Shown one piece after another: positions 25,301 through 53,200 of a stretch of 64,000 nucleotides of DNA. The position numbers and the translations under genes are program-made. The stretch covers positions 434,001 through 498,000 of the forward strand of contig JAQGDQ010000046.1 of assembly GCA_030141605.1 (NCBI GenBank). The letters are read 5' to 3'. Every line of letters starts with the position of its first letter. The first letter of the stretch is position 1. The stretch is from Tubiluchus corallicola (taxonomy: Eukaryota; Priapulida; Priapulimorpha; Priapulimorphida; Tubiluchidae). Under the pieces are notes generated by a model, which saw only the letters and a program-made list of their open reading frames with translations, was not told where the DNA came from and searched no databases.

Positions 25301-28138
25301 CTGTAAACAGCTGCAAACAATGTAGCATCCTGCTTTTGCCTACATTGTTCTAAGTTTGTCTATATTTTCAAAATTTTAGACTCAGTAAATTCCTTATTCA
25401 ACTAACTGATTTAAGAAACATTACTTATTGAAAAAGTGCAGCCTACTATGAATCATTACACATGGTCCGCTCCACTGAAGCTGTTCTGAGCTGGTCCTGG
25501 GAAATATCACAAACTGCACAGTGATCTTGAGAAGATATCCCATCTTGTCATTTTCAACAAATTTGTTCACAATTGTCGAAATATATAATTGTGGCATTAT
25601 TTAATTAATTTTTCTCTTCTACATACACATCACCACAGGTTAACATCTTACTTTGTTTCATTTAATGGCAACTCTTACTAAAATACGATTCTTGTCACTG
25701 TTAATGTTGTTATTAAAGTTGCAATAATTTATGTAATATACTTCTAAATGCTGAATCATTAGGCAAATAAAGATGTGAACAATGTCTCTCACTATATTTG
25801 AGTGCTGGTTTTTTATTCAAGCTTCAATTCCCCAGCCACAAATTTGTTAGCCCATGTATACCTTCAAACACCAAAACTAGAGTACATATAACCAGAAAGG
25901 GAAGGCAGAAAATATATGTTTGTTATTTTAGATGAATTTAAAGGTCCACTGACACCTTGGTAGACACTTGCTGTCAAAATTCACTGCTGACTAGCGTGAC
26001 ACAAAAAAGCAGCTTGTTTGTTTATAAACTTCCATGCTTTGCTTTGGTTAGAATGAAAACACTTCAAATTTAGTACTGCAAAGGCATTTAGCGAAAAGCA
26101 AAAAAATTAGGAAGAACGCAGAAGTGATGTCCCACAAGTAACGACACTGCGCATGTGTGACTCTCACTGTATTTAAATGTGGGCAAGTCAAGCAGTAAAC
26201 AAGTAATGAAGAGAGACTGGGGTACTCACTGAAGGCATTTTAGACCAATCATAGTCCACACTTACTTGAATGCACTATATTTCATAGATGAAAAGACTAT
26301 TAGTAACAAGTTACAATGTGTCAAAGTTTTAGCATGACATCACAGGTATTTCATGCTGGGCTGCTTTCTTGTTCATTTTCTGTTTTCTGATCAGATCATT
26401 TCTACTTTATAAATGTTTCACTGCTAAGTTATTTTTTGCCCAAAGTGCCATTCAGAGAATGCTTCTGACAAAGAGTGATTGTTTTTACGTTTTTCGGCAT
26501 ACAAGATTGTAAAATAACAGTGGGTTCTTGGGTATGATTGACGAGAAAAAAACTAGACAGCAAGGAAGTAAAGATTTTGTTCTCTGGGCTTTACCAATGT
26601 TTTCAGCTTGTGCAGACCGGGTATCCTGTCTGGCTTAATGTGAGGTATAAAAGTAAAAGAAAACGGAAAACTAATAAGAAATACCTTTCAGACAACATTT
26701 CTAACTCAATAAATGAGGTTCTCCCTACATTTTCAGAGACCTAGGAAAACCTTTGTGGGATTTTTTTCTGAATATGCAAATGGGGTTTTAGAGAACAAAA
26801 GCTTTAAATCTTTAAGTCATGTGAAGAAAGGGAGGTTACTGTATTAAAATTGGGTATGGATGCGATGGTGTGTCTTACTGCTAACCTAGATTAAAAGTAG
26901 TTTTCATGAAATTTAGCTAGCAAGGTTAATTATTACCTTATTTACTGCGTCTTTAACCCAAAATAGTGGCTAGCAGCTTACTTGCTGCATGATTTATTTG
27001 CAGGAGTACTCGGCTCACCTATTTTTCATACAGCCTACACACAGTTTAAACAATAATAGTACAGTAATATCATAGTTCTCTGTATACTGTGTTTATTACT
27101 ATGAATTTGCTATTCCTTGCAGGTTTGTAAACTCAAAACAACCAATTCTTCTAAGTTTATTTGCTATAAACAAATAAATACTATTGTGAGAAATGTTATT
27201 ACTAATAGATAAGTCATTACTCAGCAATAACTGCTCTGTTCACTGTGCTCTGCTTGCTGGTTGTCTACAGTTCTGTGGCTGTCAAATGTCTTCCCTATGT
27301 GACATCACAGCACTGAGTGTCACGACGGGCTATAATATTTGTGACAGTACCAACGGCACTTAATTTAAGTTGCCAAATCACATAAAAGTATGCATCAGAA
27401 CTGTTTTAAACATTAGGAAATATGTAATTCCGCCTACACTATAAAAAATAACACAAAAATAGCGTCATAAGACCTCTAACTTGCCAGACCATTTAGTGAC
27501 AAAGAACAAATGAAACAGTTTTTGACAGAGTATGCCATGCCATTTGTTTCAAATTTATTAATTCTGGTACAGCAGCTACTGCTTCCTAATTAAAGTTTTG
27601 CATTACAAGTTTGATCTTTCTTCAGATACATTTTTCTCCTTTCTTTTCTGTGAGTCAGGAATGTAACCTACATTTTCAATTTCGAACAATTTGGTGTAAA
27701 AACATGGCACCAAATATTTCACAAACTTCCAAGCTTTCCACAAAATCGACTACTTGCATTTTTGCTGTTTGGAAATTTACTTGCATTGTCTAAATGCCCC
27801 AATCATAATCCCCCACTTCACAAAACATACATGACCTAATAGACAAGGTGCTACTTTAGGAGCAGAAATTCTGCTAGTTTTGAAAGTCATTGTAGAAGCT
27901 AGAAATGCAGGTTTTGGCATTTAGAGTTTGTTAGGTACATTTTTTATACAGAATTCACAATGGAGTGCAAAAAGTAATTCAACATCACCTTTTACAAAAC
28001 AATAATTTGGGAATATTTACACAGTTCACACAGATTGAAATTGGTTAAAATCGAAGTCTCACCTCAATAAATGATGTGTTCTGACAATAAGCACTGTCAA
28101 CTACAAGATCCTTTACAGTTTTGGTTACAAAATAGGAC
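16398..28138 (-). CDS. Polycystin exons 29-32: TOP domain and channel region
   Basis: Exons 28138-28063, 24185-24020 and 23692-23510 encode the start of the extracellular TOP/polycystin domain: FIEIRNVSSMWDYIQ, GVIRLRQLRVQP, CVGDYYWHLQDT. The last exon (17485-16398, 362 codons with stop) carries the rest: the family signature YSGGGYV, DDRTRALMIEFTLFN, then S2 (VVYIVIIIIFLCVEVRKF), S3, S4, S5 (LIVIAPFVIIFSLLFVS) and S6 (GRLFLCFFIFLSLVILFCTF), with a short tail ending HDRYSIS. The S5-S6 linker is short and lacks a clear polycystin-2 type selectivity filter (LGD), as usual for the polycystin-1 branch. I see no C-terminal coiled coil. The 6-kb intron before the last exon holds a LINE and a hAT-like MITE. 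Confidence 0.93.
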
Positions 28139-31100
28139 CTAAATATATACAAAAGATTTAAATTGCACCGCTACATAAAACTCGTAGGTTACAATAATAT
28201 TGCATATTGTATAAACCTTAAAGCTTGACTACATTAGTATCGTTTGACTCTAAAATGCTTAGTTCAAATTAAAGTATCTTTACGGCTTGTCGACAGAAAA
28301 TAACCAGGAAACACATTTGCTAAAAATACATGACCTACAATGATAGCTTTATTTTGTGGATAGCCCATAAACTCTGGTGGTTAAAATTTTTGAACTGCTT
28401 TTATTCACTATCAGAACCAGCCTGATATTACATGAGATGAAGTTTTTGATATGACTACCCCAATTTTTGGATAATGCCATTAATTTCTTCGTATTTTAAT
28501 GACTGACACCACAGACTGTGTAAAAGGTGGTTAAAAACAGTAGCTTATAAGATGCCTTCTGCTACTAGTTGGGGTTTTTAGTAATTTAAACAAATTCACC
28601 ATCAGGTTTATCAAGTGGTTTCACTATCTACAGTATAGGACTTTCAGAAAACATTGGCTTCAAACGGTGGTACCAATATTTGGTCTGGCTTATAGAATAG
28701 CCGATTAAAAGCATTTATAAGCTTATGAAACATTTGTAAAATGAGTTAACAATATGAAATGCTGCACAAACGTACCTGAAATCACGAAAACCAAAAACAA
28801 TATTCGATAAAAGTATAGTGAAAAATCCATACAAGACCAGTTTGGTCACTATTTTGTTCATTTTCCGTTCACGAAGACGTTTTTTCCTAATTTTAGCAAT
28901 TTCAGTTTCCATTGGTGGCTTATAGGCATATCTCTGCCGTGCTGTTCTAAATAAAAAAAATTATTTAGTCAAAAATTATATATCTGTTCAATTTCTTTAC
29001 TTCTCAAGTTATACTATAGAAAATTAGTATCGCAGCAAGTACCTGAAAGCTGATTTCTTACATTGCTCAGCCACATGAGTCACATTTTCACGTTTAACAA
29101 GTGAAATGAAGATAGAACAATTCAACTTTTGCTATCCATTAGCATAGTCCAGCACAGCAGAGGCTGGACTATGAATTTTGGGGCCCCTAGGATAACAAAA
29201 TTATGTGGACCCCTCAGATGGAGCCACCCTCTAACTAGCTCGCAATGGTCTTAAACATTGTACTCGGTAGTACTAAAAAATTACCTCATATTTTTTGCCT
29301 TATTTTTTTGCTAATTCGATGTTGAAACTCAAAAAAGCAAAAATTTCTGGGCATAATTTGCTCTCTGGTCACATGCTAAGGGTGAAATGACTCTTGAGCT
29401 TTCTACATTTCACAATCATTTTTACATCAAATAGTTGGCAAGCTTGGAGAAGTAATTATAAAAAAACAGCATTCGATGATTCAATACTTAGTAGCCATAT
29501 TAGATTAGTTCCTAAGAAGTAGAATATATTACCTCCTAAACTCTAGCATTAGACAAAGGAGCTTGCATGAATTGTGTCAAAAATACAAACCTTTCATGTT
29601 CATTCCAGCATTCCTCCAGAATGTCTAGCTCTTCTTCATTACCATCCTGTGGCAGAGCAACTACTATGTGCAGTTCCGGAGGCTGTTTGAATATCATTGT
29701 TAAGACTAGAGCCATAAATAAAACTTTCAATGGTTGACTAATGCAAATGCTCTGCACGATGGACGTCAGCATCGACAACAGCCATTGAACACTTTTTGCA
29801 TAGCCATACTTGAGACCATACAGCATAACTAAGTAAGTGCAGATTAGTGACAAACTGATGACTAACGACCATGCAAAGTACACACACCACCATGGTAAAT
29901 CTAATCCTGGAGTGCCATAGATATCCTTTCCACAGCATATTGAAAATGGAAATGGTATTGTTCTCAAGCTGACAGAGCTAGTATCACTGCTTTGATCACT
30001 TATCATACAAGTGGCTTCTGAATTCTCTTCAGTGCATTTATAAAAGACATCATAGTCAGAGTTGATACTACCTAAATTTAATTTAGTGTATAAGACAAGC
30101 TATTCTCCAGAAAAACGCCTTTTCCTGATAAAGTGTTTTCATGGAAAATTTTTGGTAGAAAAGTTCCCAGAAAAATCATTTCTTAGAAAAATTGTTCTTA
30201 GAAAAAAATTCCAAGAAACTCATTTGCCAGAGACCTTATATATTTTCAAACAAATATTTCTGCCTGAAAATTCTTTGTACAGAAAATTCACAACTTTCTT
30301 TTAAATGATCAAGCAGCAAGCAATACAGCAGTATATTTTTTAATAACCTACTTTAATATTTTTATGCCACCTGTAATATTTTGGCAATACTTTGAGATTT
30401 TTTTTGATAATGTTTACGATTCCTGACAGCATTCCAGTAAGTGGTAACGGCAACATGTTACATAATCCCCAACTACAAAGTTAAGTAGTTAGTGACATAT
30501 CCCAAATGAAATAACTTGGTGTTTCCTTTTTTGAAAACCTATCATTTGTTTGGCACCTCATGGCTTTCCTCTAAAATTAATCAATGGCCATCCCCTCACT
30601 CATTTTGACAGCACAAAAAAGCAAAATTCCGTCATTTTTATTTGATAAGAAGCACTACAATCATAAGTACATTTACAATAAAAAAACAATGGGCAATTAG
30701 TCAAAATCCGCATTTGACTAATTTTACACATTGTTTTATTATAATAAATGTACTTGTGAATGTAGTGCTTCTTATCAAATAAAAATATTGTTTAAACTAA
30801 CTGTCCGTCATTGGAATGGTAGAGTAGAGCTGCCACCGACATTAAATTCAATTATTATTGATAACAGTATTAAATACTGCCGATTTTACAGTATTTTTCA
30901 GACAAACAAATTCATATATTACAGATATATATTGAATGAAAACATGTGGTCCTACAGGTGTACACTGATACTCCTTGGCACTAACTGATGCATTCCAATC
31001 TTAAATGGGAAAGGTGTTTTAAAAAAATTTATCAGAAAAACCTGAGCCATGCACAAAGAAATGCATCTCCTGATTTCATACTCTATAAATTAGTTGTCCG

Positions 31101-34100
31101 ACTTAAGAGCACTAGACTGGTGCCTCAGCCTATTACGTTAACCCACTTGACAGATTTTAAGCCATATTTTTAATATGATAAGGTCTGATTAGTGATTAAC
31201 CTGTAATCTGTTTCTTATCAAAAGCATGTTGCTATACTAAGCCTCTGTTTTACTATTTTATGAGAGATGTTTAAGATCTTTCCCCACTGATTCCTAATTC
31301 CTGGTGGAATGCAAGCCCCTGCTTGCCATATTTCTATGCCAGTTGCCACTGTAACGGCTGCTAAAGTACCCAGTTTTCCTCTAGGCTTCCTATCTATGGA
31401 ATTTTTAATAAAAAAATTATTTCACTTTTAATTACAGTATCACTTGCTACAAGTAATTAAAGAATATCAGTCAGTACTTCCTACCGCAAGCACATTTACT
31501 GTAAGAATTACATCTTTCTAGGGCTGACCTAGCTGTGGCCTGTATGGACAGTCCTTACAAAAAATTTAACAATAATACTATAGCTGCCTGTGCCTTAATT
31601 TGCCACTTATATTTTATGTTGGAGAAGGTTCTTTGCAGAATGTTCTTTGAAATTAGTCGTTTGTTCTTTCTTTCTTTATTGTTTTTCCGCTAAGGCAATG
31701 AATAACTCCAAAACTGTAGTACTTAAAGTCACCAAACTTGCAGGGTGAATACCTGGGGTGGCGACTGAGGCAATAGTATAGTGACCTTTGATTTTGGGTC
31801 AAAGGGTTAAGTACCGTGGACACAGGTTAGTTTTTCTATTGTACCTCAATTCCTCCCAAGGCTTTGAATTAAATTCATTTTTTTCACAGAATTTTAAGCA
31901 AAACCAGGTAGATGTACACCTATGATGTTAGAAAGCTGGTATTCCATAAAGGCCCGAAATAGGAGCCAAAATTTGAAAATTAGGGCAAATGTCACCCAAC
32001 TCCTCTTACAGCATTGGACTAGGAGTCAATGCTTATGCACTTAAGAAGGTGCACTACATATTTTTTGAAAAGTGGGCGTGGCTTGGTCATGTGATATGGG
32101 CAAAAGTGTTAAAATGCAGTCTTGTTAATAAATTCATAAGTAAAAAAGATGGAATACGGATATTTGCAGGGTCATAGGTTACAACAGCAGGAGCCAAAGT
32201 GTTAAAATTAGAGCGAGCGAATGGCTTTGTCATTTAAGTCCACTTGCAGTATTTGACTAGAAGCCTATGTTTTTGCATGTTAGCTGGAAAAGAGCATATG
32301 TGCACTAAAGGAAAGGCCAAGGCTTCTGGAAAGTTAGGCTTATTCCAATGTTCACGAAAAATGTTAGAAGGATTTAGTAATAGTACTGCAATAAGTGCCT
32401 CGTATAATTAGTAAAGTCACGATAACTTCACGCTTGGGCACTCCCAGTTTTAATGCCCATTCTTCTTCCAAAGATGTCATTTGCCATGAAGAAAAGTTGC
32501 GCATTGTCAACTTCACCTAATTTTGTAATATTTTTGCATTAGGTAAACTGCAGAAGTCTGAATTAGTTTAGCCAGCATGTGCTTACGGAAAGTCACGAAG
32601 TCTCCCAGTTACGTCATAATTTTCAATTGAATGAATCTTAAATTTATGACTAGGTCATAAACAGCAGTCTAGTTAATTTTGTTTTTACTTTTAGCTTTTT
32701 TCTAGCACCCGGGTGTGTGTTTTCAATCAGTCACGAAAATAGCACAAGTACACACCGCTATCTTTTATAATTATGCTATACTTACTCTTGTTTCCGGTAC
32801 TTAAGCTAGTTGAAGATAATATGTAAGAGAATTCAGTATTTCTTCTTCGAATGTATCTGTGCTGAAAAGGAGCCACATCTAATGCCAAAAGTTTGACTGC
32901 CTTTTCAACAGTTTTTAGATCTTGGTGTATTTCGCGCAAAGTGTGACACTCTTCCGCCTCCACTTCATTTGCCCAACTGTACAACTCCTCTTCAGACAAA
33001 AATTTGGGAATCTTCAAAAACCAGTACAAAAAATAAAATTAAGATTTGCATAAATCATCAGTCAGATGTTATTGCTTAGACATTTTTTTAAATCTGTAAC
33101 ATTATTTAACACTACAAGCACTACTTACAGTCTTACACCCTCACTTGCTTAAGTGCAAGAGTGACACGCGTACAAGTTTTTTTGTGAATTAAAAAGCTTA
33201 ATGTATTACTACTTCCCCAAATAATTCAAACTATAATTGTCAAAAAACTAGAGATAGAGGTTTCATAAATGGGCTTGAAGAAAGTTAATCAGATTTAATT
33301 AAGAATCTGCTTATGACTTGTAAATGATATTATACGCCATGTATAAATGACACCAAATGTCGAAAAAGCAGAGTAACACGAAATTCAAAAAGATACAATG
33401 CAATGAAGAGCACCTTGTAAGGTACCACACGCAGCACCATGGTGAAACAAATGGTACCATAACAGACTAAAATTGCATGTTGGAACAGTTTAATCACACC
33501 AAAATATGTGATTACCTAAATGCTCATTGTAGCTACCATATTCCATATTAAGGCTAAACTCGACCTTGACTGTTGAAACATCACAAGGAAAGTTCAGATA
33601 AACTACAGAACCATTTCTTTTTTCGATCATCACCAAAATCATACTAAAGTTCCTTTAGAGGCAGACCCTTTTTTCTTGAAATTTTTGTTACAACATCATA
33701 TGGACAATTACCGGTACATCAACAAAATCTGGTAAATACACAACCTACTTGTTAATGGTTAAAATGTGAATGGCTATTATTAATAGATTTCACTTTTCTT
33801 GCATCGATAACTAATTGTTTATCTATTAGCTGGTGTTTCTGTGAACTAACTATAGCTGACTATGACAACCAACATACAATAACCTTGTAGTTTTGTCAGC
33901 CATTTAAAAAAATAAAGTACACAACGACTTTTTTAACAATAAACTGAAACAAACTCATTTTACTCAATCGCACAAAAACCTCAAGACTACTTTGCAAGGA
34001 TAATATACAGCCAATTAAAGAAGTTAAATAGATCACAGCTATTCTTCATATAGTTACACTTTAAAAAGCATAAAAAGGTAATTAGTTACCTACTCTGAAT

Positions 34101-37100
34101 GCTTATAATAAGCATAATAGAATAATTATATGTTTAGTAAAAAAGAATTCGGGCAATTACAATGGCTCTGTAAGCACTATGCTTCATACTCACTTCGGAG
34201 GAAAATTTGTCTTTTGGCTTAGTCTGTTCTTGCAAATGTGAATGTTTATTACTTTTATGCTTACTGAAAACAAAATACAAAGATATGGAAAAAGTGCACA
34301 TCAACAAATATCGTTAACAAGGTTTATCTACTATGAACCAGTAACAAAAAACTTTGTTGAAAATGAATTACTCTTGCCATGAAATACTAAACGTTTCTTC
34401 CTACTTTGACCAAATCTACTATGAAATGTACCATTATTCACAGTACTTGCAATTCAGAAGCTACATATTATATACGTACATGCGAAGTGCTGGCTCTATC
34501 ACTAGGCAAACTAGGCAGTAATTCCAATTCTGGAAGCAATTCTTTAATTTTTAAGTTTTGCTTTAGGAAAAATAGTAGTATAGTGTATGTGGAATTGCTT
34601 AAATCCATAACATTTTAATTTAATGAAATGGACTGCTTGTGTTATTTCCCGTCAAAACATAAGATTCATCAACGTTAACACGGCGGTTTCCTTCACCAGG
34701 GGTGCGCAAATTATCTGCCTAGGGGGGCAACATTAAACTGTCCGGCAATTCCTGCGGGCTGCATGTAGTTTGGTCAAGGAGCCAAAAACAGGTTGCATGT
34801 AGTTTGGTCAAGGAGCCAAGAGCAGTATGGCCTAACAACAATTTTTCTGCATCTGTCGTGTCATTGCTACTGCACTGAAGAAAACTATTCTATGAAAAGA
34901 TGAAACACCCTCTGATCAAGGCGTGTACTACAGAACCTAAACAGAAACTAAAATCAGGGACTCCTCTTAAATCAAGGGTGACCACACTTTTTCAGCTTGC
35001 GAGCTACTTATAAATTGATCGGCCCAGTCGTTTTGTTGGTCATAGTAGGTAGATTATTTTGACATGGTTATTTTATATTTATTATAAAATATATCGGCCC
35101 AATAATAAGCCTAGAGACTGGCTGGTTGGTGCTCCTACCAGCCAATCAGATTGCACATTTGGGTGTTTTAATGGCAGTTTCCATGATAGTTTGCTGTGAT
35201 CTGTGATTTTGCATTCCTTTTTTGTGTTTCAAGTGAGTATCGGGAAATTTAACATGTCAAAAGTGACATCAAGTGACAACCATCTCCATAAGGGTTAATG
35301 CCACATGATCTACCCACACTGTCTTTGCGATTGTGGCACGGTCTTTAGTTAGAGACATCTTCCTGTTACATGCGACTCAAATCACCACCCGGGCCGCACT
35401 CATTAGGTTGACAAACATCTTCCTAAGGTTGACAGACATGGCTTCCTGAGATTACGTTACTGTGTGCAGACACTACTGAGTACTGTAGTAAGGAATTTTA
35501 CTGACATGTTACCTTGCTTTTCCCAATTTATTTTTTGTGCACAGAACAGCAGAGAAAGAATCTAGAAACAACTCTATCTGTTGATGAAAAAAGTTTCTTG
35601 AAAGAGCATTTATCTAATTTATTCATTTATTTATTTAGGTTTATCTGCCATGAATATCGCAGATAAACCTGTAAGAACTGAAGTCTTCAGGAAACCATGA
35701 GGTACATGAAGCCAATGGTAAAAAAGCTAGTGGTAACCAAGTTACAGTTGTGAAGATGTTGAATTACGCAAACATCAAATTTTTGTAACTACTAGATAAT
35801 CTCGAGAATGTCACGAATACAAATTTGGATACAAGTCAGATATGTGGAGCAATATTAGCATGCATGGCGTGCATTTCAAAATCAAGAAGAGAAAAGCAGT
35901 CTGTTTCATGGCAAGAAATTTGGAAGTTCAGTCGTTTCTTACACCTTAATGAAGCAATACTCTCAATGTAAAGATATGCACTTTTCACTTTTACTGTAAG
36001 AGCATTAATTTAAACCTTACTTTACAAAATGTTTCCATTCCACTTTAAAATAAATGTATAGAGCAGGTTTAGCAGTTACCATGTTTCTCTCACATTGTCA
36101 GTTAACAAAATTATTACTTTAAGATTTGCATTCACTATAAGAATTGTAAATCATAAATAAAATTAAACTCACTCTTTAATTACAATTTCACCAGGAGAAA
36201 TGCTCAACAAAAATTTTTTTTCTGGATGAGGTTTAGACATCCGGAATAGGCTAACAATAAAAAGATTTACTGGGAAGATTATTAAGCTGCTTGCAATACC
36301 TAAGATTAACAAAACATTAAAAGCTTCATTAACAGAGATTAGAAAATATATTAAAAAATTAACAAACAGTCTATAAATGTCTGTTGCAATGAACAATTTT
36401 TTAAACACAGAACTGTAGTTTCAAACTAACTGTAGTGGGAAACTAAATTTCTGAAAATAAAAATAAAGACTACAAATGACTATTGTAAACTCGTATTATA
36501 ATCTGTTTTTAGATAGCAATTGAGATGGCTGATGAGAAACTATTATTATTAGCATACTAATTTTTTTTTGGATTTTCTTTAATAAGAACCATTAGGATAA
36601 GATAATTTGCTTTGCAGTGAGGGGTCAAATCTGCCTACATTCATGTGATGCAGTATGCAAATCATGAGAGCTTACTTAGTCATATAATTCAAGTAATAAG
36701 AATCTTTGGTTACTTGGCTTGCCAATCACGAATTCTAGAGTTAGAGAAAATCTACTGTTAGGCAATGAAGAGCAAAGACTTACAATGCATGTTTTATTAC
36801 ACAGCATTGGTTTAGGGGCAACAAAAATAATGTCATAAAGATGTAACAGAGAATTACAAATAATTATTTTGGTATGGTAATTCAAGGCTCTCTGTGTGGT
36901 ATTAGTCACATATCATTTTTGAATACAAGTCCTGTACATATATACAAACAAATACGTCAGCATGCTTAAGTAATGTGTTGGTGTGTGCACTAATAACTTT
37001 TTGTGATAACAGTGTAGTCACAAAGTTATTCTTGCACATACCAATGTTTTACATAAGCGCACATGCCCACTTGTGGGTATTCAAAAAAGATACATAAATA

Positions 37101-40100
37101 GTACCACTTAGGAGGTTCTGATGGCTTGTGTACTACTAAGATGACATTTCAGGTCTACTATGCTATGTCGGGCTCAAGTGACAGAGCGAGACTTGAAATC
37201 ACAAGGTTCTGGAGACAGACGCTTGTTGGCCTGTTCACAAGGAAAGGCTGCAATGCATGACCCATTAGCCCTCAAAAAATTAGGGTAATCTCATTACATT
37301 TATTTGCTTTTAAAGGAAACGAGGTGTACATTAAGTGTGTGATACGACTGCAATGTTTTAGATAAATCAAATATGATTTCCATATGATAAAATGTTGCAA
37401 TAATAATACCAATAAAGATTTGAGCCCAAGACACTTTGAGGTCGCCTATGAATATTTGGTCTTCAGGAAGATTTCTCGGTATACCATAGAACATAATGTT
37501 AGCAAGCATAGCTGTTAAAAGCAATGCCAAAGCACATGACAACCTCTGAAAAAAAAACAAATTATATATAGAGGTTCTATAAAAGTTTTTAAGTTATGAG
37601 AGATTAGATTATCAATATTAACAATAACACTACCAGAAAAATAGGGCTTTAAACACAAACCTGAACTCTAGTAAAATGATTTTCGGCTGGTCTCCAAAAC
37701 ACACTGGCCCATAAATGACTATCCCTAAAGCCACCCATAGCTTTGGTTGAAAACACATGAGTAAATGCCTATACACAATATGTAAAGTTGTTACAATGTT
37801 TCGCTTATTTGGTATAATAAAAAAAACAGCCAACTTCACTAAATAAATGTGTGAAGGAAAACAAATTATTCTCGTTCATTAGTTCTTTTGCTTCTCAAAG
37901 TTGGCATTTCTGAGTATGCAACAATGAACATGCTTCTTGTGATCATTTCTTGTCACAAAATGTTTTTCTCTCTGCAACTCCCAAGTAGTTGAAAGGTGTA
38001 AAATGTTGCAATAAGCTGGCAATTCTCTTTGGAAAAATAGGTCTAATCTCTGTGCAAGGTCCACGGCAAGCTGGACAAAACTCTGCTATATGTATATTAC
38101 ATGCTATGCCAAAAAGTCTTTTTAATGATGTATATACTCTCCTTAAAGTTTTTTCTACATCAGGAATTTACGATTGCTCCCAAATTTGCAGAAAATTCTC
38201 AAATTTCAGTTTTTGTTTTCGAAATATTCTGACAAAAATAGAAACCTAAAACAAGCTGTGAGATTGCTGGGAAACTGAGAGTGATGTTAAAAGGCTCCAG
38301 AAAACAGTAAAAAAATGACTAAATAGTGTCAGACATATTTTCATATACTTAGGCAACTTCTTACCATACAAATTGTATTACTGTAACTTACCATAAGTTC
38401 ATCTTTTGAAGTTGGAAATAACCGACATTTCACTGTTTGAGGACCGTGATCAACAGCCAGCCAATTACCATAAGGAAAACACCAGATTTGGTTTGTTTTT
38501 ACATCACTTACAATAACTTTTCTTAAATACCTAAAGCAAAAAAGGAGGATCTATTTGCCTGGCTATAGCTCAGTTAGCTGGCTGTAATTAATGAATTGCT
38601 AACAAAACAATAATAAAACTTATGTGAAAGATACCATTCTCAACAATAACCCTTTTCGTACAAAGAGTGACATCTAGACATTATTGTTGTAGTCAAGTCT
38701 TTCAGCTGCAGTCCATGTTGAGTCCCAAGTCCTTGGGGTTCAAGTCCGAGTCAAGTTACTGTAGCCCTAATATGAGTCAAATCTGGAGTCAGTATGCCCA
38801 AGTGTGAGCTGAGTCTCGAGTTATTATGTCTACGTGTGAGTTGAATCTCGAGTCGTGTTCACATGTTCAACTTCAAATCAAGTTTCAAGTCAAAGTAATC
38901 CCAGATTAAGCCAATTCTCAAGTTCCTGATTAATACTAATAAACTATTCTCGTTAGTTTTGTCCTTATTTTGCTTATTACTGCACTAAATTTATTGAGTA
39001 ATATTGAAGTCTTAAATTTAGCTATATACACTGTATCAGACTAACTGTGCAAGACACATTAATTTTACAAATGATTTTACATTTTATTGATAATGTTACA
39101 GTGGCTTTACTCGTACTAACATATTTATTTTCGAACACACATGAACAGTTAAGTTACATAGGTGGTTCAATTAAAAGAAATTAGTATGCTAGTAGTAAAA
39201 GTAAAATAAATACATATATTAAATACTAACAACAACAACAACAAAAAAGGTACTGAGATTATTTACATATAAGAAGATAAAGCAATTAATTTGAAATGAC
39301 ACCACATATTCTAATAGTTCTCTCAATTAGTACTTTGATAAAAAATTAAAATTTCCATATCCAAAACGTAAGTGTGAGCTCTATATGGCAGTTTCCATAA
39401 TTTACAGATAGCTATATTCTAAGCTGTATCTAAAAAATGTATTTTCGAATTATTCAACTTCCAACTCTGGCAACCATAATATCTTAGACAACACGTTTGA
39501 AGTAGTTGTTCACATTTAAAGTCAGAACAAGCAAATGAAAAGTTACTGGCATGGTAAGCATAATCACTCCGTTTACTAAGAATATCGGCATCATCCGTTA
39601 AATCACATGTAATTACGTGACCCAAATCACTGACTTTATCTGTCCACATTAAATTATACTAAATTATATCAATATAAAATAAGTTATATTATGTATCTAT
39701 GACACAAAAGTGACATTATAATCTGTAGTACTGATTACCATTTACAGGAAGTTATTAAATTTAGAAATACTATGTGAAATATAGATGACATATTTGTGTG
39801 GTCTTGGCTAACAAACCGCTTTAATTGAAGGCCAGCTCAATTAATAGGCACACTCATAGTTGGGCCACTAAATAATTGATTAGCCAGTTTAAAAAGCCTA
39901 CTGTTGAAGAGTTGTGCACTATGTATTTTTATCATGTATTGTCAAGCGTATGTTTAAAGTCGTAATAACACGTAAAAAATTTTAACCGAGCGTAGACGCA
40001 AACACTGCCGGTGAACCCAGAAACTTCAAGAACTACACTTTAGGCAAACATACTGGAATTGAAATGCTTTGCAAAAAAGAACGTTGCAATATCTTAGTTA

Positions 40101-41261: not shown

Positions 41262-44200
41262 GAGACAATGCGGGAGAGGGATTGTAACAAACCATTTCGG
41301 ATCAAGCCCAGAATTATCGTGCCACACATCAATAGCAATAAGTTGACCAAGGCTACGGCATGTGGTCATTAGGAATCTATCCTGCGCTCCAGCATCAAAT
41401 GCAGATCTGTGTTTATGGTAAAGTCGAGTGGGTAAACTATGCCCATCATTACCTGAAATGTAACTTAATATACTCATCACTTAATATTTACTGCAACAAT
41501 CATAACCGTAATGCACAGCAGGCCTATTTGTGATATAAGAACTTAAGTTCGCAGCATGAAAAGACAAAGCAAACATAAACTGCTGCTTTAGTCACAAGTC
41601 ATTCATTTTCATTATTTCATGTGATCATAATTACAAGATTTTTTAAATATATTAAAGAACCCTTCATGAGTTAAAATTTATTTCTGTTGTGAAATTACTC
41701 AAATGTTTAGCGATTAACTTTAACGATGTAAAGTTTAATAAACATGAAAGTCCACTATAATGAATAGAAGCGTTTACAGAATGATTTAAGCAATCTAGCA
41801 GATCTTCAAAGACTGCTACAGCCTGTATGTACTGCCAGGCAGTAATTAGGTAATTACACCGTAGTTTCAATACAAAATATAAATTCATATGTAACATTAC
41901 ATTATTGGCATCTATGATCCCAGGAGGAAAACCATGCCCGTCAATATAAGACAAAAATTGACCTTATTTAAATATGGCAGTACAATAAGGCTGTGTTAGC
42001 AGGTTAGCCAAAGGAATAACAAATTTGAAAGATTGATATTTTTTCACAACAGAATCATAATAAGCAATACTGGACAATTTTACAAGCTACAACACGATGT
42101 AAGCCTAAAAAACTGCACAATTTCCTGAAAAACACTCCAATAAACACTCAATTTTTTTCTTATTTATTCACCTTCAATATAAATGATAACATTTGCTGTT
42201 GTCCCAGCACCTCGTCTCAGGCCCGTAAATGTAATGATCAGGTAAGCATATGTATCACTAGGATTATTGTCCTCCAGTATTGTTACTCCCAACTATTAAC
42301 ACAGGAATTTGTTAGCAATTCACACAAATAATAGTAAAAATAATTAGAACACTTTTAATGCTAACAATCAACAATAGCAACAAGTACAAGAAAAATTACT
42401 TCAATAGTATTATAATTTAGTTAGGCATTTAGCTTTGTGCTTTTAATCATCATATTTGTCTTTGCGTAATCTATCATACTTATAATTTAGTTGGTCAATA
42501 TTATAAACTCTGAATTTTACTTTTCTCTCAATAGCGTACAGAAAGTATATATGAATTACCGGTTTTCTTTCTTTAGTTATTTTGCATCCTTAGTCAATGA
42601 AAGCCATAACTTTCAGACTCTGTTCTTTCTGTCAATTAACTTTTTTCTTGGCATGGTTCCAACTGGCTTCCAATACTGACAGCCAATAGTCAATAGTCAA
42701 TAGCAGAGGCATTTTTATTAATACATAGACGGTAGATATTGATTAATTACCTACAGATAAAAAAGGTGATGTAGACTACCCTCAAATTTAATTTACCTTC
42801 AAAGCATCTTCCTGATCATGTCTTCTTGCATACACTAACAAAACCAGGTATAAAAACCACACCAGTGATACGAATATAATGACAACAGGATTGTCAAAAA
42901 AAGTTGCAAAAAGAATAACATCTTCAATGGGATTTAGCTCATTTGGCTCAACTACAAGTCGTCCAGCAAATGCTGTCATGTGATAACACTGACAATGAAT
43001 TTGCTTTGGTGTAGTTAATGGTCCTACCTATAACAGAAAACAGGTGATCTAGAAATAACAGTTAATCAGTTTCAAGAGTTACCTGAAAACAGAAACATTG
43101 ACCAGTCACTTTTAGTAATAGATAACTTTAGTCATTGCAATACCTAATTATTTTTACCACATTAATCCATTATGAATGACTAACTTTTGGCAGCAGCAGT
43201 ATTACAAGTTTCTTTGAAGGCAAAGAATGAATTTAGTCTCTGGGACAAAGTTTGTGCCTGCAATTAATCATCGGCCAAACCCTGTGGCTCTGCTGTAAAC
43301 TTCGTTCCTAAAACCTCAAAATGTTGAAGTGAATTTTCGAAGTTGCATCTAGGTTTGTAGTTTGTTTACCACTCATTTTATTTTTTTAGTAGAAATGATT
43401 TAATAAATGGTTAGGTGGGTCTGTGACACAGGACATTAGCCTCTTGGTTTTATAGTGCGTTTTTGTGTTATAGTTGGTGCTACAGCGCAGAGGACTGAAA
43501 AGTAGGCAAACTCCAGTCCATTGGAATCAGGGACAGAAACTAATCTTCACGAAAGGGAGTCTGAGACACACATACAGTGCACTGCTTTTGCAAGAAGTGA
43601 CATTCCTTAGAAATCCTAGGCACACTTTATACCTTAAACACTCTGCATACAAGCCCAGGGCTTGATTGTGCAGCCGAAGTGTACTGAACGAGAAGTGACA
43701 TACAGTCGCCTAATGTCGAAATTTCCTTTTTGTGATACACTGCAAAAATCAACTTAAGAAGTCCTCTGGTGTTAAAAGCCACTGTGAACATATAAGTGGA
43801 ACACAAATATAAAGGTACACAAAAACTTGCAAGTGTACATGGAGCTGTCTATAATTTAGGGTTAAAGAGGTCAATGTACTTATTCTTCTGTGTTTATACT
43901 TCTCTACCATAAGGGCATCACTAACTGCACAGAAATGTTCCCCGCAAAACTTCTGTCACTTCTCCTTCAATACATATTCATGCACATAGTCTATGAAGTA
44001 AACAAATTGTGTAAGAGATGGTAACTAGCACCTCAGAAATAAACTCAGAAAAAGTATGATATAACCTGTCTTGACACTAAACAACAACAAGGTCAGTTAA
44101 TACGTAGAGTGTTTTAAGCTCGATTTCCCACAAAGAAAATTTGCATGTTTCCTTAGGCTGTTCAAATTTTAAATATAAGCAGCTTTTATGTAAAATGCAT

Positions 44201-47200
44201 GCTACTTTCAGCAAAATGGCATCGCCAATATATTAATTTCTGGCATTACATTTACACAGACGATAGTGCAAAAATGGTAGAAGATATAAGCGTGCACCAG
44301 TGTACGAAACATTACAAAGAAAGTACACTAGAGGTAAGCACCTCGTACGAGACCTCTGTTTTCACCCAGACAAATTTCAATAGAATTTCTAAGAGGAAGA
44401 CTGTAATAACTTATGTCAGTTAAATGAGTGTGATATTTGTAATGAAAACACCCTTTGGTATGAAGCACTCAGCCCAAGAGAACAATAGAGCCTTTTCTAA
44501 TATTGTTATATATCACAAAGCTCACGCCTGGTTGGTTGCCTACTAAAGTTTGTAAAAAAATCAGTCAGAAACGAATCAGTACAAAAGACTTCATGGCCGG
44601 TAATTTTTTCATGCAGTTTGTCGCATTTTGTATAAACGGCGCAGTTAACAGAAAACTGCCATATCTATAAACGGATCACCAAGTACATCTAGAAAGTTGT
44701 GGCAGTCATGGTAGTCATAGAAAGAAAGGGACATGAAAGATGACAGCTCTGGTAACTGCTAGGTAAGTGCACTAAACAAATAACTATTTTTGCAATTGAA
44801 GAATTTTTGAGGATCTATGTATATCACATTATCAAATTATTCATTAAATTCTGGAAAAAATTGGTTATATTTTGCATGACAAATTTATCAAGTAGGCACT
44901 GCATAACAGACTCACTGTTAACAGACTCAATCGCTTACTTGACTGAAAAACGTCTGGCATGGGCCGTGTTTATTCAAATGTATATAAAAACTATTGGTAA
45001 TTGAATCAAATAACACCACATAATTGACTCAATATTTTTCCGTCGCATACTTAAAATAAGGAATTTGTATGTACCCAAGGAGCCTTTCCTACTTACGTCA
45101 TCTTTACTTCGCTTCTGTGCACTATAATATCAGTAGAAACAATCATCCGTTTTGTTTGTAAGCAGGCGCATTTATCATGCACTATTACGCTAGCGCAGCA
45201 ATTTTGCTTTGAATGTTATCCCCGAATTTCTGGAAGCTAAACATTTAGTCACTTGTCTTGCGGTTTATTTTTAAAACTCTTGTTTCACGCTTTCAGACTT
45301 AATCAGTTAACAGTTAAAGATGCAGGTACAGTAATCAGCCCGTATTCCGTGAAAAATGGAGCATAAGTGTAAAGATCTAACAGTTAAGGAGAAACTGAAA
45401 ACTTTAGAGCAGTACGATAAACTTCCAAAGATGGGGCAGCGCAGTTAAAAATTTGCTATGGTACTTTTTTTCTAAAAATTTTGAACTGCACAAAGTAATT
45501 TAGGCATTACGTCGTTTCTAAAATTCATTGAATCCCCTGGCAGCGCATGCTATGCTAAGCTGATGACTCATACTTCTATGCCAGTAATACTACACCCATC
45601 GGTTAATAGGTTTAGTCAATTAACTGGGTCAAAACACTTTGGTCCCAAAGTGAGTCTATTAAGCGGCACCTACTATATTGTATATACTGTCTTAATTAAA
45701 ATTTCTACTAATTTTAGTTTCTGCTATGTAGGAAAAGGCTAAGCTACCTGGCATCCATTATTAGACCAGTTCCTTAATGGCACGTCCCAGAATAAACATC
45801 TCGCAGAATAAGAGCTAATATTAAAGTTAATGCGCTTTGCAGGAGGCTGAACTGCAACATAAATGAAAAATCACTCTATATATATATATAAATATATAAA
45901 AACAAAATATATAAATTCATTTGCATTTTATTTTATATACGAATCTAAATGGGAAAAGACTTTAGAAATGAAAATATAAATTTGGTTTAATAGATTTTAT
46001 TTCTTTCAAAGTAAAAATAACTAAAGAAATGTAATTATAGTTAGATTTTAAAAAATGACTAAATTAAAAAAATTAAACAAATGATTGAATATTTTAGTAT
46101 TTTTAGACCGAGATATTATAGTAATAAAATACATCCAGACTTCAAAGTATAGCATTAAGTGGACTAATTTATGATGATGACAATTTTTTTGGAAGCACTA
46201 ACAGAGAGCTAGCGATCAAAAGTCACGATATAATTCAGCAATTTTTAACAGATGTACATGATACTTTGCATTCATATTACTTAGAGAGATGATAACTCTA
46301 GAAAACACAATAGGGTAAAAATAATATTTAAGCAGGTATTCCGAATGAGGTTCAATAGTTTAGTATGCTCTATAACATCAAAGAGAGTGAGGAGATGTAT
46401 TACTACATTAAGATTTAAAATACTAATAACTTCACTGTGAAATAATAGCACGTTAAATGACAGATTAACTCGTGGGCTCCAAATTTTTCCAAATGCCTTG
46501 CTGCAAGGATTTGTTTCAGCTAATGACGATATCATACAGAACTTGAGTGAATATCAGCAGGAGCATTGTGATTTTTATTAGGTCACTAATGAATTCTTCA
46601 TAAGCTGAACAATACCTCAGTACTTATATAATCATGACATAAACAGTGACATTTCTAATATCAAAAAACTTACTGTACCAATGCTCTTTTTGACCAGATA
46701 GCATGGAAAGGTTTGCTGATTTTCTGATTTGTCTCCCATTAGCCACGTCATACAAGGACATGTACATGTTGATTGTTCATCTTCTATAATTACCTATCAG
46801 AATATAGTTAGAAATGTTTTGAGCATGACAGTTGTATTGTACAGTTCAACTCCTTTAAAGTCATGCTAGACAGTACAGTGTGATGCAGCAGCTAAGATGG
46901 CAGGTATATACGGAATTCATTAACATAACGTTTAAAAAATTAATTACAATCTATATCCTACAGCGATTATTTACAACAAAAGTTGAACATTTTATCTACA
47001 GTGAATATAATTTTTTATACATTTAATCAGACAAGTATGACCTTACTATTTGATTTCAATGTTTGCTGCCTACTGATACAAGACATTTTGTAACAATCAA
47101 CCATAAATGCTCACCATATTTGCCTTTACCAAAAACAGACGCAATAGGTGACATTTGTTCAATTAGCCAACTGACTACCATGCATTGCAGGAACAGTTTT

Positions 47201-50200
47201 ACAGGAGTGTTTCATTCCAAAGATGGACTCATGGTCAGTGAGTAAACTATTGTCAGTTAAACAAGATACACATGGCATTTTAAAATTTTAGTAACCATTG
47301 GCAAGATAGAGACAGGGCAATAATTAAGCTATATGAGCACAGAAAATATTTGAAAACGTCTACTCTTTGAGGAATGTTGCACTACTAGTATCTGTGCTCA
47401 CCCTTAAAGATCCAAGCAAGAGGGGATACTAAAAATATCAACAGTTGCTTTTTCATAAAACCCACTAGTCTACAGGAAAGATTACTACAGTGATGTAGTT
47501 CTATTTGGATATTATCAACTGTTAGGTGTAGGGAAGTGACGTCTGCCATAATTCTTTCATTAACGTAATCAGTAATAGTATACTATATTTCCAACAATGG
47601 CAAGCGGATATGTCTTGGTTTTGGACAGTATAATTTGTTAGAAACTTTCAAAAAAGTGATGAAAATATTCCATTTTACTATTAGAAAACATAAAATTTAC
47701 AAAGAGAATGTGCTTGAATATCATTCGATTCCTCTCTTAAATGTCTACAAAATAATTAAAATCTAAATGGCTATTTAAAAGAAGCTACAAAACAGAGATT
47801 TTTCGAAAAAATCCCAAGATTCCTCACTTTCCAGTTCCAAGCTTTGGCAATACCCGAAAAACTTAAAGAGTATCTACTTTAGGCAAGTAATGACCAGCTG
47901 ATAATGTGCTTTCACTTTATGTAGTGAGCCAAGAATTGCCTTACATGGCTTATAAGCAATGCTTTAGAAAAAAACTGTGGTAGTTCCTTTTGGTAATAGT
48001 TTTTACATAAAGCAGATGCGTGAATTTGCACTACGCAAAATTTGAGGCATTTCAAGCATTTCAGCATAAACAGGAAAAACTTCCTACAAATGCAAAACTG
48101 TTATGTATCAGTACCTTTTCCAACAGCCATCCTGCTCCAATGCCTCGATTGTTATGCCAAATACTGATATTTTTTACAATTCCAACAGACTTTGTTTTCA
48201 ATATAAACTCGTCAACTCTAAAATACATTTGTGATAGAGTAGTAAAAATGTCAAGTAATTTTAATACAGTTATCACTTTACCAAAATTAATTTAATTAAA
48301 CAAAAGTATTTACAGTTATAAAAGTTGAAGACTGCAAACACGTACAACGTGTTTTTCTGCTAGTAATGTTTAACAGAGATAAAGATGAAATGCAGAATTC
48401 AAGCAATGTTACAACTTAGTATCAGTACCATTTAACGATAACAATTAAAACTGGTTGCAACATGGCTTAAAAGTAAAGATATTTTTTTCACCAAAAACCC
48501 TTTTCTCTACTGTTACAGTTTGTTTTATGTGCCAAACATAGAAAACTTTTTTTCAAAATGACAATAAATTGTAACATGCTAAGTTTTTTGAAGTAATTGA
48601 AAAGTTACAATTATTGAGTATGAACTTATTTTTCTGTATGTACAGATCTCGTTAAAAAAAGAGGACAAGTTCTCATCAGTTCTGTGCTCTTAAAAGAAAA
48701 GTCACCTTTCTGCTGTCTGTTCGGTATCCACAATTAGTCTTTCTCTAATAGTTCTAATAATTTTCACACATTAAAGCCAATTACCTTTCGTTTGTGTCAA
48801 AACCAGAAAAAGATCACTCAGACAAAAAATGAAAGATTGCTCAGTCAGTCAATAGGTGAATGTAAATCTTGTATACTAAATCAGAAACACTAGCTATGAA
48901 TAAATTCTGAGTTTTAGCCTTTTGAAATTAATTAACTAATAACTAAGATGGATGCTGTCCCGATAGACCATTTACACGAGTTTCCTGCCGAAACGTTGTA
49001 GAAATGTGAAAGAAAGACTAACTGTGGACGCCAGACGATAAATCCGGGAAATTACAGTCAACCTTAGATGTGGTGCTGTTCTTCAACAAAGTTAGACTTG
49101 ATTAAAATTTAAATAACGAATTCTTAAGAAACCAGCTAAAGAAATTTTATCAAATTCGGCAGTAACAACTTTACATACATGCTTTTTCAAGCAAAGTTCA
49201 ATTAAAGGGAAAAAGAGAATGTTAAGGTCCAGTACATCCCAAAAAACTTTATAAAGAAATTTATATTACTTAGCATTACACCTTCCTGTTTGAAAGACTT
49301 ACGTAACTGGAAAGGAATTCTTAATAATTTAAAATGTTAGTGCAACCTGGAAAAGCCGCACTGCATCGCCATCCCAGTGTGCAACACTAATTCACTAAAA
49401 ACATATTATTAATCTTATTAACAATGTAAAGTAATTTATATTCATTTACAGTCATTTATGTTCACTTAGTGAAGATTATGCTACAAATGCAGCGATCATT
49501 TTTTCACACTTTACGCAATGTTATTTAAACTTGATTCAAAAAACTTACAGTTAAAATGGCTGTACCTAATGGTCATTGCAGGAGTTTAAGTTTATAAATT
49601 TTATACAGCATTATTGCATAAACAAGCCCTACATGCAATAAGACAGCATGTTACGTTATATAAAATTTCAAGACGAATTTTTAAAGCTTTGTTTACAGAG
49701 AGTGTTTTCTTCTCCTTTAACAAACAACTTACGCAGCTCGTCCAAAACCTGTTAAGCTACCAATCAGTTTCCTATCTTCAGTAACTCCATGATCACCATA
49801 AAGTTTCACATATACACCAGCAAATGTACCACTGTATTTTATATTGGCTGTGTGCAGAGTGATAAAATATAACACATCTAGATAGGCAAAAACAAAATTT
49901 GCAAGTTCATAAAGGCTAAAAGTTATAAAGGCTAAATCTCTTACTTCGCAATAGAATAAAATCAACTTTGGCTAAAATTGGTGTTTAAAATTAATCAAAA
50001 ATTTATTTAATTTATGCAGAGAATTAAAAACCACATTTCCAAATACAGTGTACTGTGAGTCTTTGATTACAAAGACTAAAACAACTTTTTGTCATTAAAT
50101 TTATATAGATGACTTTCAATATAAGAAAAACACATAGTAAATTTCAGCACGAAATACGAGTGAACATATAAAAAAATTATATTTCGAATGCAAGTACAAA

Positions 50201-53200
50201 GTAAGTGCTTACTTAATAATGCCAAAGTAATGCAGCAAAAGGTGTCGTTAAGCGAAACGTTGCTAAACGAAACAATGCTTTCCATAAGAAATAACGTAAA
50301 AGCAATCAGTTGCATTCCAGCAGCAAAAATCAATAGTACTTGGTAAAATGTAAAAGCATTCAATTATGTTGCAAGAGAAAAATCAGTAATGTTTGACTCA
50401 TAAATTGAACACTTTTTAGGGTATTATGCTTGCAGTTTTTCATTACCTTTTCGTTTAATTAAAAAGTTAATGAGTAACTAAAGTATGAAAACTAAAATCT
50501 AAACTTGAAAATTTAGTCTTTCCGTCTCTGGTTGCTCTCATTCAGCCATTTCTCCCCCCCTTTTGTTTTCTCATGAAAAATCTGTGGCCGGTTTCGTAGA
50601 TTATAACCATGTTTGCTACATCTCATCTTACTTCTTCCCTACCATGGTCATTATCAGTGTTGTCCTTATGATAGCTAAATTGCAAATGAGACGAACCCCC
50701 GCAAATTAACACCTGGTTGAGAGAATTAATTGTGTAAAATGAGAGTTTTATCAACCAGAGGAATTTTATCTAAATGCGGGAAAGCAATAAATCTGCCTAG
50801 CTGTGTGTGACTGCCTGCTATCAGCTAAATTGGGCAAATTATTACAAGTATGATAACCAGCTGTTCTAGGTTAAGTAGCTAGTGAGCTTCATTTATATGG
50901 TACGACAGGTGCAAACAAGATTTAATGCCTAAGCCTAAAAAAAAGTGGTTAAAATGAAACTAGTGACGTTAAGTGAAAAAAGGTGTCAAAAGATTAACTA
51001 AACTGAAGATTAGCATCATTAATGAAACTTCACTTTGCGTGTTTAGCAATATATAAGATAACATTGAAAAATAGGTAACATATAAAAATAAAATCTAAAC
51101 CATTTCATTACTACCCACCTGCTGCCTCAGATGTAGCACGAGTGGATGTTTGTTGCTCTTCAGTTGGGTTTCTTGTAGGTAAATCTAGCCAAAAGATTTC
51201 AGTGCAACGGTAATTGTTCTTAATAGTAAATTGCTTGCACACCTCACTAGACACGGAATAGCAAGTGGTAAAGTGATTTTTGCAGGTTAAGGTACAGTCC
51301 AGTGTAATTGCTGCATCACACTGAGGGGAACATTGATGGCACGTTTCATTGCAAGAAAAGAAAATCCTGTCACACTCCTGAGTTGACCTTATTTCGCATT
51401 TATACATGATACCTCTACAAAATTCTCTCTCAGTTTCAACCAGTAGAGTGCCTTCACAAGCAAAGTCAGCATTTCTAATGCATGTGTCTATATTCTCGCA
51501 ATGATAATTAAAACTTTCAAGACAGTGTGTATATTTTAGTGTACAAGTTTCATGGCAATCATCATTCGTTACATTGCACTCAGATTGGCATTTTTTAAAG
51601 AGTGCTGTACATGTGCTTTCTAAAACGGATTGGCATTGTTGATACTGTGTACTACAGTACACAGATATGTTCTCACAGTTCTTCACCCAATCATCATAGC
51701 ATGCATATTTTTGCATGCAGTTGTCTATACTGCATAATTTATTTGCCTTTGTCTTGCATAGAGCTGCATCTGTATGATCACCACAATTCTTGAAAACAGT
51801 TTCTGTACATTCAGCACTTCTTGTCTTACAGTCAAGAGATGGTTTGTAACATGTAGGTTTGAAGTAAGAATCAAACATGATGCCGATGAAAAACTTAACA
51901 GACGTGTTTTGATCATTATAAAAATTCACAATATTATCTACAACCTTTTTACTGTATGGTCCACTAGTCGTAGCAGGAATGCGATAAACAGCTGAACTGT
52001 CACCAAAACTTTCAAATATAGGCCTTTTGCCTTTTTTGATAACAACCTAAATAGAATAGTTTACATATAAGCAAACAAAGTTGCAAAATGCAATCCATAG
52101 ATGCAAAAATTCTAAACAAGAGCTTACACAATTACTAGCTATTCACTTGGTTTTTATGCAATTATATAAAAATAAATGTGCCCGAAAGAATACAAGGAGC
52201 AAAAACACAATTTTTCTGCAATGAAAGTTGAAACTGTAAGTACACTGCTTTACTATGTAGTATCAACACACCAGCTTCTCTCCTACATCAGTTTGATAAA
52301 TTAGACAAAGTTACCTTTAATGCTATACCAGGAGGAACATCTTGAAACGATATTATACAGTGACTGTATGCATCGACAACAAGCGAGTGGACAGTGATAT
52401 GCTTGCTGGAGAAATTCGTTGCATGTTCCATAAAATATGAAGGTATCAATATGGTGTCATCTGTGAAACAATTATAATCTTATTAATGTTGAAATGCAAG
52501 CCACCCCTTGAACTTTAATAATGTTAAGAAAATAAGTGGAAATAAGTGATGGATGGTTAAAAGCCTTTGGTATATAATGTGATTGACTGAAATTGCCCCA
52601 TTCAAGTTACTGACTTCAACAATACAACATAATGATCTCAATTTAACCCCAGAAATACAAGCTGTAACAGTGATCCCTTTTTACCACTAAACATACTCAA
52701 AACAAACATTAATAAGCAGATCATTTAAATAAAGAACAATGACAAATTTGTTTTACCCTTAACATCCATAAAAAACTCTAGAGGCTCTGCAATCTCATAA
52801 AATTCAAGCCCAAGCAGACTTGGACCTTTGCCGAAAGATACACTTGTTATAGGAGTGCTGATAGGAAGTGCAGACTCAAAAGCTTTGAATATATTTTCTT
52901 TTATGCCAATTATCTAAAATTAATACACATTCACAAAATCTTTATTAGACATAAGACATTTTAAATAACTAAACATAACCAATCTGACAGACAGAAATTG
53001 TGACAAGCTATGCTAGCATCTTCAAGTATTCTGCTTTTCACAAGTTTGTCTGGCATTTTCTACAGTTTGTTTCACAGAGACTGACAATGAGGACATACAA
53101 TGCCATCATAAATAAGCTAACGGAAATTTCACGTAATTGTGATTTGTTCTTGCGCAGAAAATCACAGAAGATGGAAATAAAGAAGAATTGCAAGATAAAT

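Follow-up and report, generated by a model that had tools for sequence, protein, structure and literature searches.

Polycystin-1-like genes of a priapulid with a Cys-rich domain and a second PLAT domain predicted before the GPS

Polycystin-1 is the main disease gene of polycystic kidney disease, and the control of its GPS and channel by the ectodomain is debated. Members of the polycystin-1 family (PKD1, PKD1L1-3, PKDREJ and the sea urchin SpREJ) combine REJ, GPS, a first transmembrane segment (TM1), PLAT, a polycystin domain and a channel, and in the described members the PLAT stands after TM1 only. Passages of two papers place it inside the cell: in a Nematostella polycystin (PMC8846589) and, adjoining the first transmembrane segment, in a planarian one (PMC11448475). 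Here we analyze a gene of this type from Tubiluchus corallicola, contained in a stretch of 64,000 nucleotides (C859:434001-498000 of a 343.5-Mb animal assembly; hereafter the window), in which a Cys-rich domain and a second PLAT (PLAT1) precede the GPS, in addition to the canonical PLAT behind TM1 (PLAT2). In listings and passages of open-licence PMC papers we found no polycystin with an extracellular PLAT, although databases of annotated animal proteins may hold the architecture unremarked; the word PLAT does not occur in the texts of PMC12716839 and PMC13197933.

The gene lies on the minus strand and spans at least 63150 to about 16488 of the window (Table 1). Over this span 25 similarity matches (E <=1e-3) to an intronless relative on contig C1882 are strictly colinear and on one strand, the last large one at 17486-16488. 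The 11 exons between 52913 and 38392, when joined, have AG/GT at all borders and yield a single open frame with a 783-residue core. Three of them, exons A, B and C, together encode a complete PLAT: the joined product matches PF01477 with 52.5 bits (E 9.9e-14) over profile positions 1-112 of 117; singly, A scores 19.4 and B 13.6 bits (cut-off 23) and C has no match. Pfam finds two PLAT stretches in the core, the second of which, PLAT2, occupies core residues 663-767, as well as one GPS, and the two joined GPS exons score 39.3 bits with PF01825. These results bear out most of a sequence-only reading of the window, which had proposed a full PLAT on three exons, spliced in phase with GT/AG borders between a Cys-rich exon left in phase 1 and a GPS exon entered in phase 0, with intron positions differing from those of the canonical PLAT, and which had predicted two PLAT matches flanking TM1. 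Its single exon for GPS and TM1 needs amendment: entry in phase 0 stands, but the GPS is spread over two exons, the first of which joins PLAT1. Missed in that reading were the family of some 20 or more loci to which the gene appears to belong and the probable placement of the insert, together with the Cys-rich domain, in the GAIN region.

The intronless relative on C1882 is one of five places with a full-length intronless polycystin (Table 1). It has 2,739 open codons, which carry the Cys-rich domain, PLAT, GPS, TM1 and PLAT in one frame, and it matches the window core in 418 of 787 aligned columns. By Pfam it contains REJ (153.5 bits), two PLATs, Polycystin_dom and PKD_channel; scanned as separate pieces, its GPS reaches 24.6 bits (cut-off 22.5) and its PLAT1 58.4 bits. 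Since it has none of the core's ten introns, it is likely to be a processed copy, in which case PLAT1 would have been part of the source transcript. The other four places were compared over 2.7-kb pieces: those of C198 and C1930 are identical, and the differing pairs give ratios of nonsynonymous to synonymous substitution (dN/dS) of 0.14-0.37, which speaks against plain pseudogenes. A further intronless piece, with stops, is present at C1882:394361-395188.

A genome search with the core gave 60 listed matches, with 57 of 327 candidates scored, and 26 polycystin-like stretches besides the window (L006-L026 and L046-L050; 27 with it) were examined. Wherever an intron-bearing locus has both flanks, exons A, B and C all lie, in this order, between the Cys-rich and GPS exons (20 of 20 loci, i.e. 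19 and the window), the match to A being partial in L049 and L050. For L013 the Cys exon lies beyond the fetched stretch and was taken from the genome search, and in L018 it is cut off. Borders are splice-consistent for exon A in 15 loci and for exon B in 17; where C ends on its 3' side and where the first GPS exon begins is uncertain for some relatives. Because L017 and L018 hardly differ and may represent two haplotypes of a single gene, the number of genes may be below 20. At ten further places (Table 1) the comparison of two match listings places an exon-A-like PLAT match close behind a Cys exon. In all, the family of predicted polycystins with PLAT1 before the GPS comprises some 20 loci or more.

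Seven of the 26 stretches fall outside this pattern. L019 (C2114) has a GPS; PLAT1 and the Cys exon were not found in the 6.9 kb upstream, where the Cys profile gives just weak opposite-strand matches. In L046 (C2061) the Cys exon is 99.6% like its counterpart in L014, and no PLAT1 or GPS was found in the next 8.9 kb; this locus is either a partial duplicate or an assembly fault. In L020, which contains 4,501 N, and L023 we found B, C and the GPS and did not find exon A and the Cys exon. L024, L025 and L026 belong to other polycystin types; L025 lacks an insert before its GPS. Upstream of the GPS exon of L019 there are frames that by eye are reverse-transcriptase-like and rhodopsin-type G-protein-coupled receptor (GPCR)-like. 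Within another relative (L048:8279-9755, on C1210) lies an 87-bp minisatellite of 17 copies with 96% match, each unit of which holds part of the GPS exon and an apparent splice donor; a similar row of GPS matches lies at C2040:276-2101.

Across the family, PF01477 is found in nine of nine further PLAT1s scanned (40-60 bits), identity to the window copy is 36-52% among the aligned relatives, and all 12 aligned PLAT1s share three invariant Cys, a feature that would suit an oxidizing, extracellular location. For exons A+B, six pairs of relatives give dN/dS values of 0.11, 0.60, 0.23, 0.26, 0.50 and 0.00; for PLAT1 between the window and the intronless relative the value is 0.29 (dS 1.2). These are simple Nei-Gojobori counts, with 83 codons per A+B pair and pairs that are not independent; all the pairs computed lie below 1, as the selection on codons anticipated by the sequence-only reading would have it. 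We derived one profile per PLAT1 exon from 15 loci other than the window; among 2,065 window frames, these profiles score highest exactly at the window's A, B and C, with 48.8, 59.3 and 55.6 bits, respectively. After shuffling of the window in two-base blocks (20 copies), the maxima were 10.4, 10.7 and 15.0 bits. The runner-up matches for A and B are PLAT2 exons (12.9 and 26.4 bits). Two weak extra matches on the minus strand inside the window gene, 57846-57787 (second-best for C, 18.4 bits) and 25007-24957 (third for B, 15.3 bits), are perhaps decayed exon copies. At the GPS the window has H-M-T, and H-[LM]-[ST] is seen in 15 of 15 other second GPS exons tallied, among them that of L019, where no PLAT1 was found.

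The position of the insert is best seen against L025, the insert-free polycystin of the same genome, in which 18 residues separate a strand GPYYLGVV from YTLQL..CLYFD of the GPS. In the window, a similar strand, SVKFFIGIM, leads into the Cys-rich domain and then PLAT1, and FNISS..CLFWD comes about 380 residues on. From this we infer that the Cys-rich domain and PLAT1, with their roughly 380 residues, fill a loop of the GAIN region, a stronger statement than the earlier placement next to the cleavage site. As for topology, the C1882 relative has a sole over-threshold hydrophobic segment before TM1 (residues 1621-1639), namely residues 23-41, with the first Met at 28. As this segment is signal-like, PLAT1, which begins at 1421, should by hydropathy be extracellular. 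The two PLATs, found on both sides of TM1 in the core by Pfam and in the intronless relative, would accordingly face opposite sides of the membrane. In the Cys-rich domain, Cys occupies 30 alignment columns in 13 or more of 15 relatives. The exon of this domain gave no Pfam match at E <=0.01 in any of ten members scanned and none among PDB sequences, and a single-sequence structure model, with a mean predicted local distance difference test score of 48, was too poor for use. It is a new, undescribed domain.

Taken by sequence, the family has the domain order: domain of about 30 Cys, complete PLAT, GPS, TM1 and usual PLAT. We consider it the best explanation, with a probability of roughly 0.6, that the Cys-rich domain and PLAT1 are an arm in a self-cut polycystin receptor through which release and channel are controlled. 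The protein would enter the membrane with its N-terminal part outside and cut itself at H-L/M-S/T in the GPS, while the N-terminal part including PLAT1 would stay bound to the channel part. The arm would grow out of the GAIN fold, such that a lipid, lipoprotein, matrix or cell-surface ligand on it would shift that fold. Through this shift the ligand would control whether the N-terminal part is released, the segment following the cut exposed and the channel opened. In human PC-1, according to passages of PMC7728438, a soluble N-terminal fragment activates the channel. The size, divergence and spread of the family suggest that its members may recognize different ligands, much as receptors of chemosensation or gamete recognition do. 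Several points weigh against this explanation. The GPS is absent from the Pfam listing in the whole-protein scan of the C1882 relative, and a Pfam scan of the joined core up to E 1 gave no GAIN model, so that the GAIN region and the insertion point are placed by the sequence pattern and one control protein, L025. Self-cleavage is predicted from the H-L/M-S/T motif, and it is by hydropathy that segment 23-41 of the C1882 relative looks like a signal peptide. In addition, the window PLAT1 has N at a site where most aligned relatives have D (TAN versus TAD).

The most substantial alternative, which we regard as possible but distinctly less probable, is that the Cys-rich domain and PLAT1 serve a gamete- or cell-recognition receptor as a passive spacer or a general arm for adhesion, binding partners without affecting GPS cleavage or the channel. 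REJ-type polycystins of sea urchin are gamete proteins, as stated in passages of PMC1934368, and a family whose PLAT1s have diverged to the degree described above would suit such a role. Against it, the insert lies by sequence pattern in the loop beside the GPS and is kept in every locus with both flanks, a constancy that would be unnecessary for a spacer free to move, although coupling is not thereby shown. At the other extreme, one could claim that these receptors are a class of their own, with a lipid-binding PLAT and a new domain of some 30 Cys nested in GAIN; an extracellular lipid or ligand would then directly gate both release of the cut ectodomain and the polycystin channel, and the PLATs would read both membrane faces. 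This we hold to be unlikely. It is extremely improbable that A, B and C represent chance frames or pseudo-exons, or form part of a separate nested gene. Each exon alone does stay under the Pfam cut-off; however, the intronless relative has the region in frame, the leave-window-out profiles match exactly these exons, and the dN/dS values add to the grounds for rejecting chance or pseudo-exons. Moreover, omission of A+B+C would break the frame, as the Cys-rich exon exits in phase 1 and the GPS exon is entered in phase 0. A separate gene is rejected by the strict colinearity with the intronless relative.

The origin of PLAT1 is compatible with either function. The sequence-only reading had taken exon shuffling from a LOXHD1-like source as its probable origin. 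In our tree the 17 PLAT1s are one clade (100/99), the PLAT2s group with polycystin PLATs to the exclusion of PLAT1 (89/83), and PLAT1 falls weakly near multi-PLAT/lipoxygenase-type PLATs (83/72). 5-lipoxygenase and L024 are long branches in this tree, which omits L020 and L023 (no exon A), L047-L050 and the short pieces of L030, L031, L033, L035, L036 and L038. The rows that we take to be LOXHD1-like or lipoxygenase-type are so named from layout and recall, with no LOXHD1 sequence among those compared. The PLAT1 intron after W-L-L-E-K (phase 0) is by eye at the same place in three of three PLATs of contig C44 and not in the PLATs of C2184 and C2055 that read through the site; the first PLAT1 intron is, again by eye, one base from an intron in C2184. 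A one-residue gap is common to PLAT1 and five of seven LOXHD1-like rows; the remaining two rows carry a residue there, as do 5-lipoxygenase, PLAT2 and the polycystin PLATs. A LOXHD1-like source is favored and rather likely, though not proven. A duplication of the gene's own PLAT2, or of another polycystin PLAT, is a rather doubtful alternative: the top solved-structure match of PLAT1 by sequence is the polycystin-1 PLAT (36 bits versus 23.5 for 5-lipoxygenase), which speaks against the LOXHD1-like source, and a clade of PLAT1 and PLAT2 survives the approximately unbiased test (p 0.075, versus 0.348 for PLAT1 with all seven LOXHD1-like rows). The tree, its long branches notwithstanding, the differing intron positions of the two PLATs, the intron shared with C44 and the common gap all count against duplication. 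The PLAT1 exons taken together run from phase 1 to phase 0, an asymmetry that makes them no simple symmetric module; the Cys-rich exon and PLAT1 as a unit run from phase 0 to 0. A PLAT exon presumably of the lipoxygenase type (L034, C859:392500-393000) lies on the window's contig. Elsewhere in the window, on the minus strand at 8218-8532, a frame resembles by eye a nuclear receptor zinc finger. In the assembly at large, homeodomains up to 97% like Antennapedia mark the animal as a bilaterian, and a peptide behind one homeodomain, reminiscent of the protostome Ubd-A peptide, suggests a protostome. A tunicate had been considered, as Ciona has PKD1-like self-sterility receptors, but GH6 had no match; nor did COX1 and innexin, and as the control genomes gave no GH6 or innexin match either, these two absences carry little weight.

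Table 1. Features of the polycystin-1-like gene (window positions) and related places elsewhere in the assembly (contig names).
Feature	Position	Strand	Phase	Evidence or remark
REJ-region exons, same gene	62678..63150	-		PF02010 36.3 bits, E 3.2e-9, on 62896-63201; colinear
GAIN-region exon 1	52757..52913	-	0->1	AG/GT, open frame; similar to intronless-relative residues 1012-1069
GAIN-region exon 2	52315..52460	-	1->0	AG/GT, open frame; match to intronless relative
Exon with last GAIN-like strand before insert (SVKFFIGIM) and Cys-rich domain	51119..52046	-	0->1	Cys part 51851-51119
PLAT1 exon A	49733..49877	-	1->2	Joined Pfam match, splice borders, leave-window-out profile
PLAT1 exon B	48115..48217	-	2->0	Joined Pfam match, splice borders, leave-window-out profile
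PLAT1 exon C	46674..46793	-	0->0	CPCM..W and third Cys; joined Pfam match, splice borders, profile
GPS exon 1 (CLFWD..W..GC)	45748..45846	-	enters 0	Adjoins PLAT1
GPS exon 2 with H-M-T of predicted cleavage site, and TM1	42797..43027	-		Motif, Pfam on joined GPS exons, splice borders
PLAT2 exon a (canonical PLAT after TM1)	42172..42292	-		Splice borders; second PLAT stretch of core
PLAT2 exon b	41293..41452	-		29.6 bits alone; splice borders; second PLAT stretch of core
PLAT2 exon c	38392..38530	-		Splice borders; second PLAT stretch of core
Further exons, same gene: membrane, polycystin-domain and channel parts by similarity	16488..37765	-		Similar to intronless-relative residues 1792-2708
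Intronless full-length polycystin, five places	C1882:375430-377763, C2172, C198, C1930, C1923			Open frames 2,437-2,748 codons
Ten further places	C306, C2275 near 5932, C1491, C1442 (x2), C1633 (x2), C270, C1125, C2160			Exon-A-like match near Cys exon

Compared with the known systems, the window gene has the REJ (a part-profile match in the window), the GPS before TM1 and the PLAT directly after TM1 of the polycystin-1 family. The polycystin domain and channel are found by Pfam in the intronless relative and by colinear similarity in the window, where neither part is confirmed by Pfam. In place of a single intracellular PLAT there are two, one of them before TM1; as the single PLAT appears to be a usual rather than a founding feature, the gene is best regarded as a variant of the polycystin-1 family. 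The LOXHD1-like multi-PLAT proteins of this genome are nearest to PLAT1, weakly, and share one intron position with it; LOXHD1 itself consists of consecutive PLATs and is not known to have REJ, GPS or channel. Adhesion GPCRs that contain a GAIN domain are comparable in their GPS with H-X-S/T and their ectodomain modules. However, their membrane part has seven transmembrane segments and their modules usually stand before the GAIN domain, whereas here the membrane part is that of a polycystin and the modules would, from the sequence pattern, lie inside GAIN. A natural family with two domains built in before the GPS indicates that this site tolerates, and may use, a large insert: it would thereby offer a ready-made place for sensors or tags and a direct test of allosteric GAIN control. 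If PLAT1 is extracellular as predicted, it breaks the stated rule that the PLATs of polycystins are intracellular.

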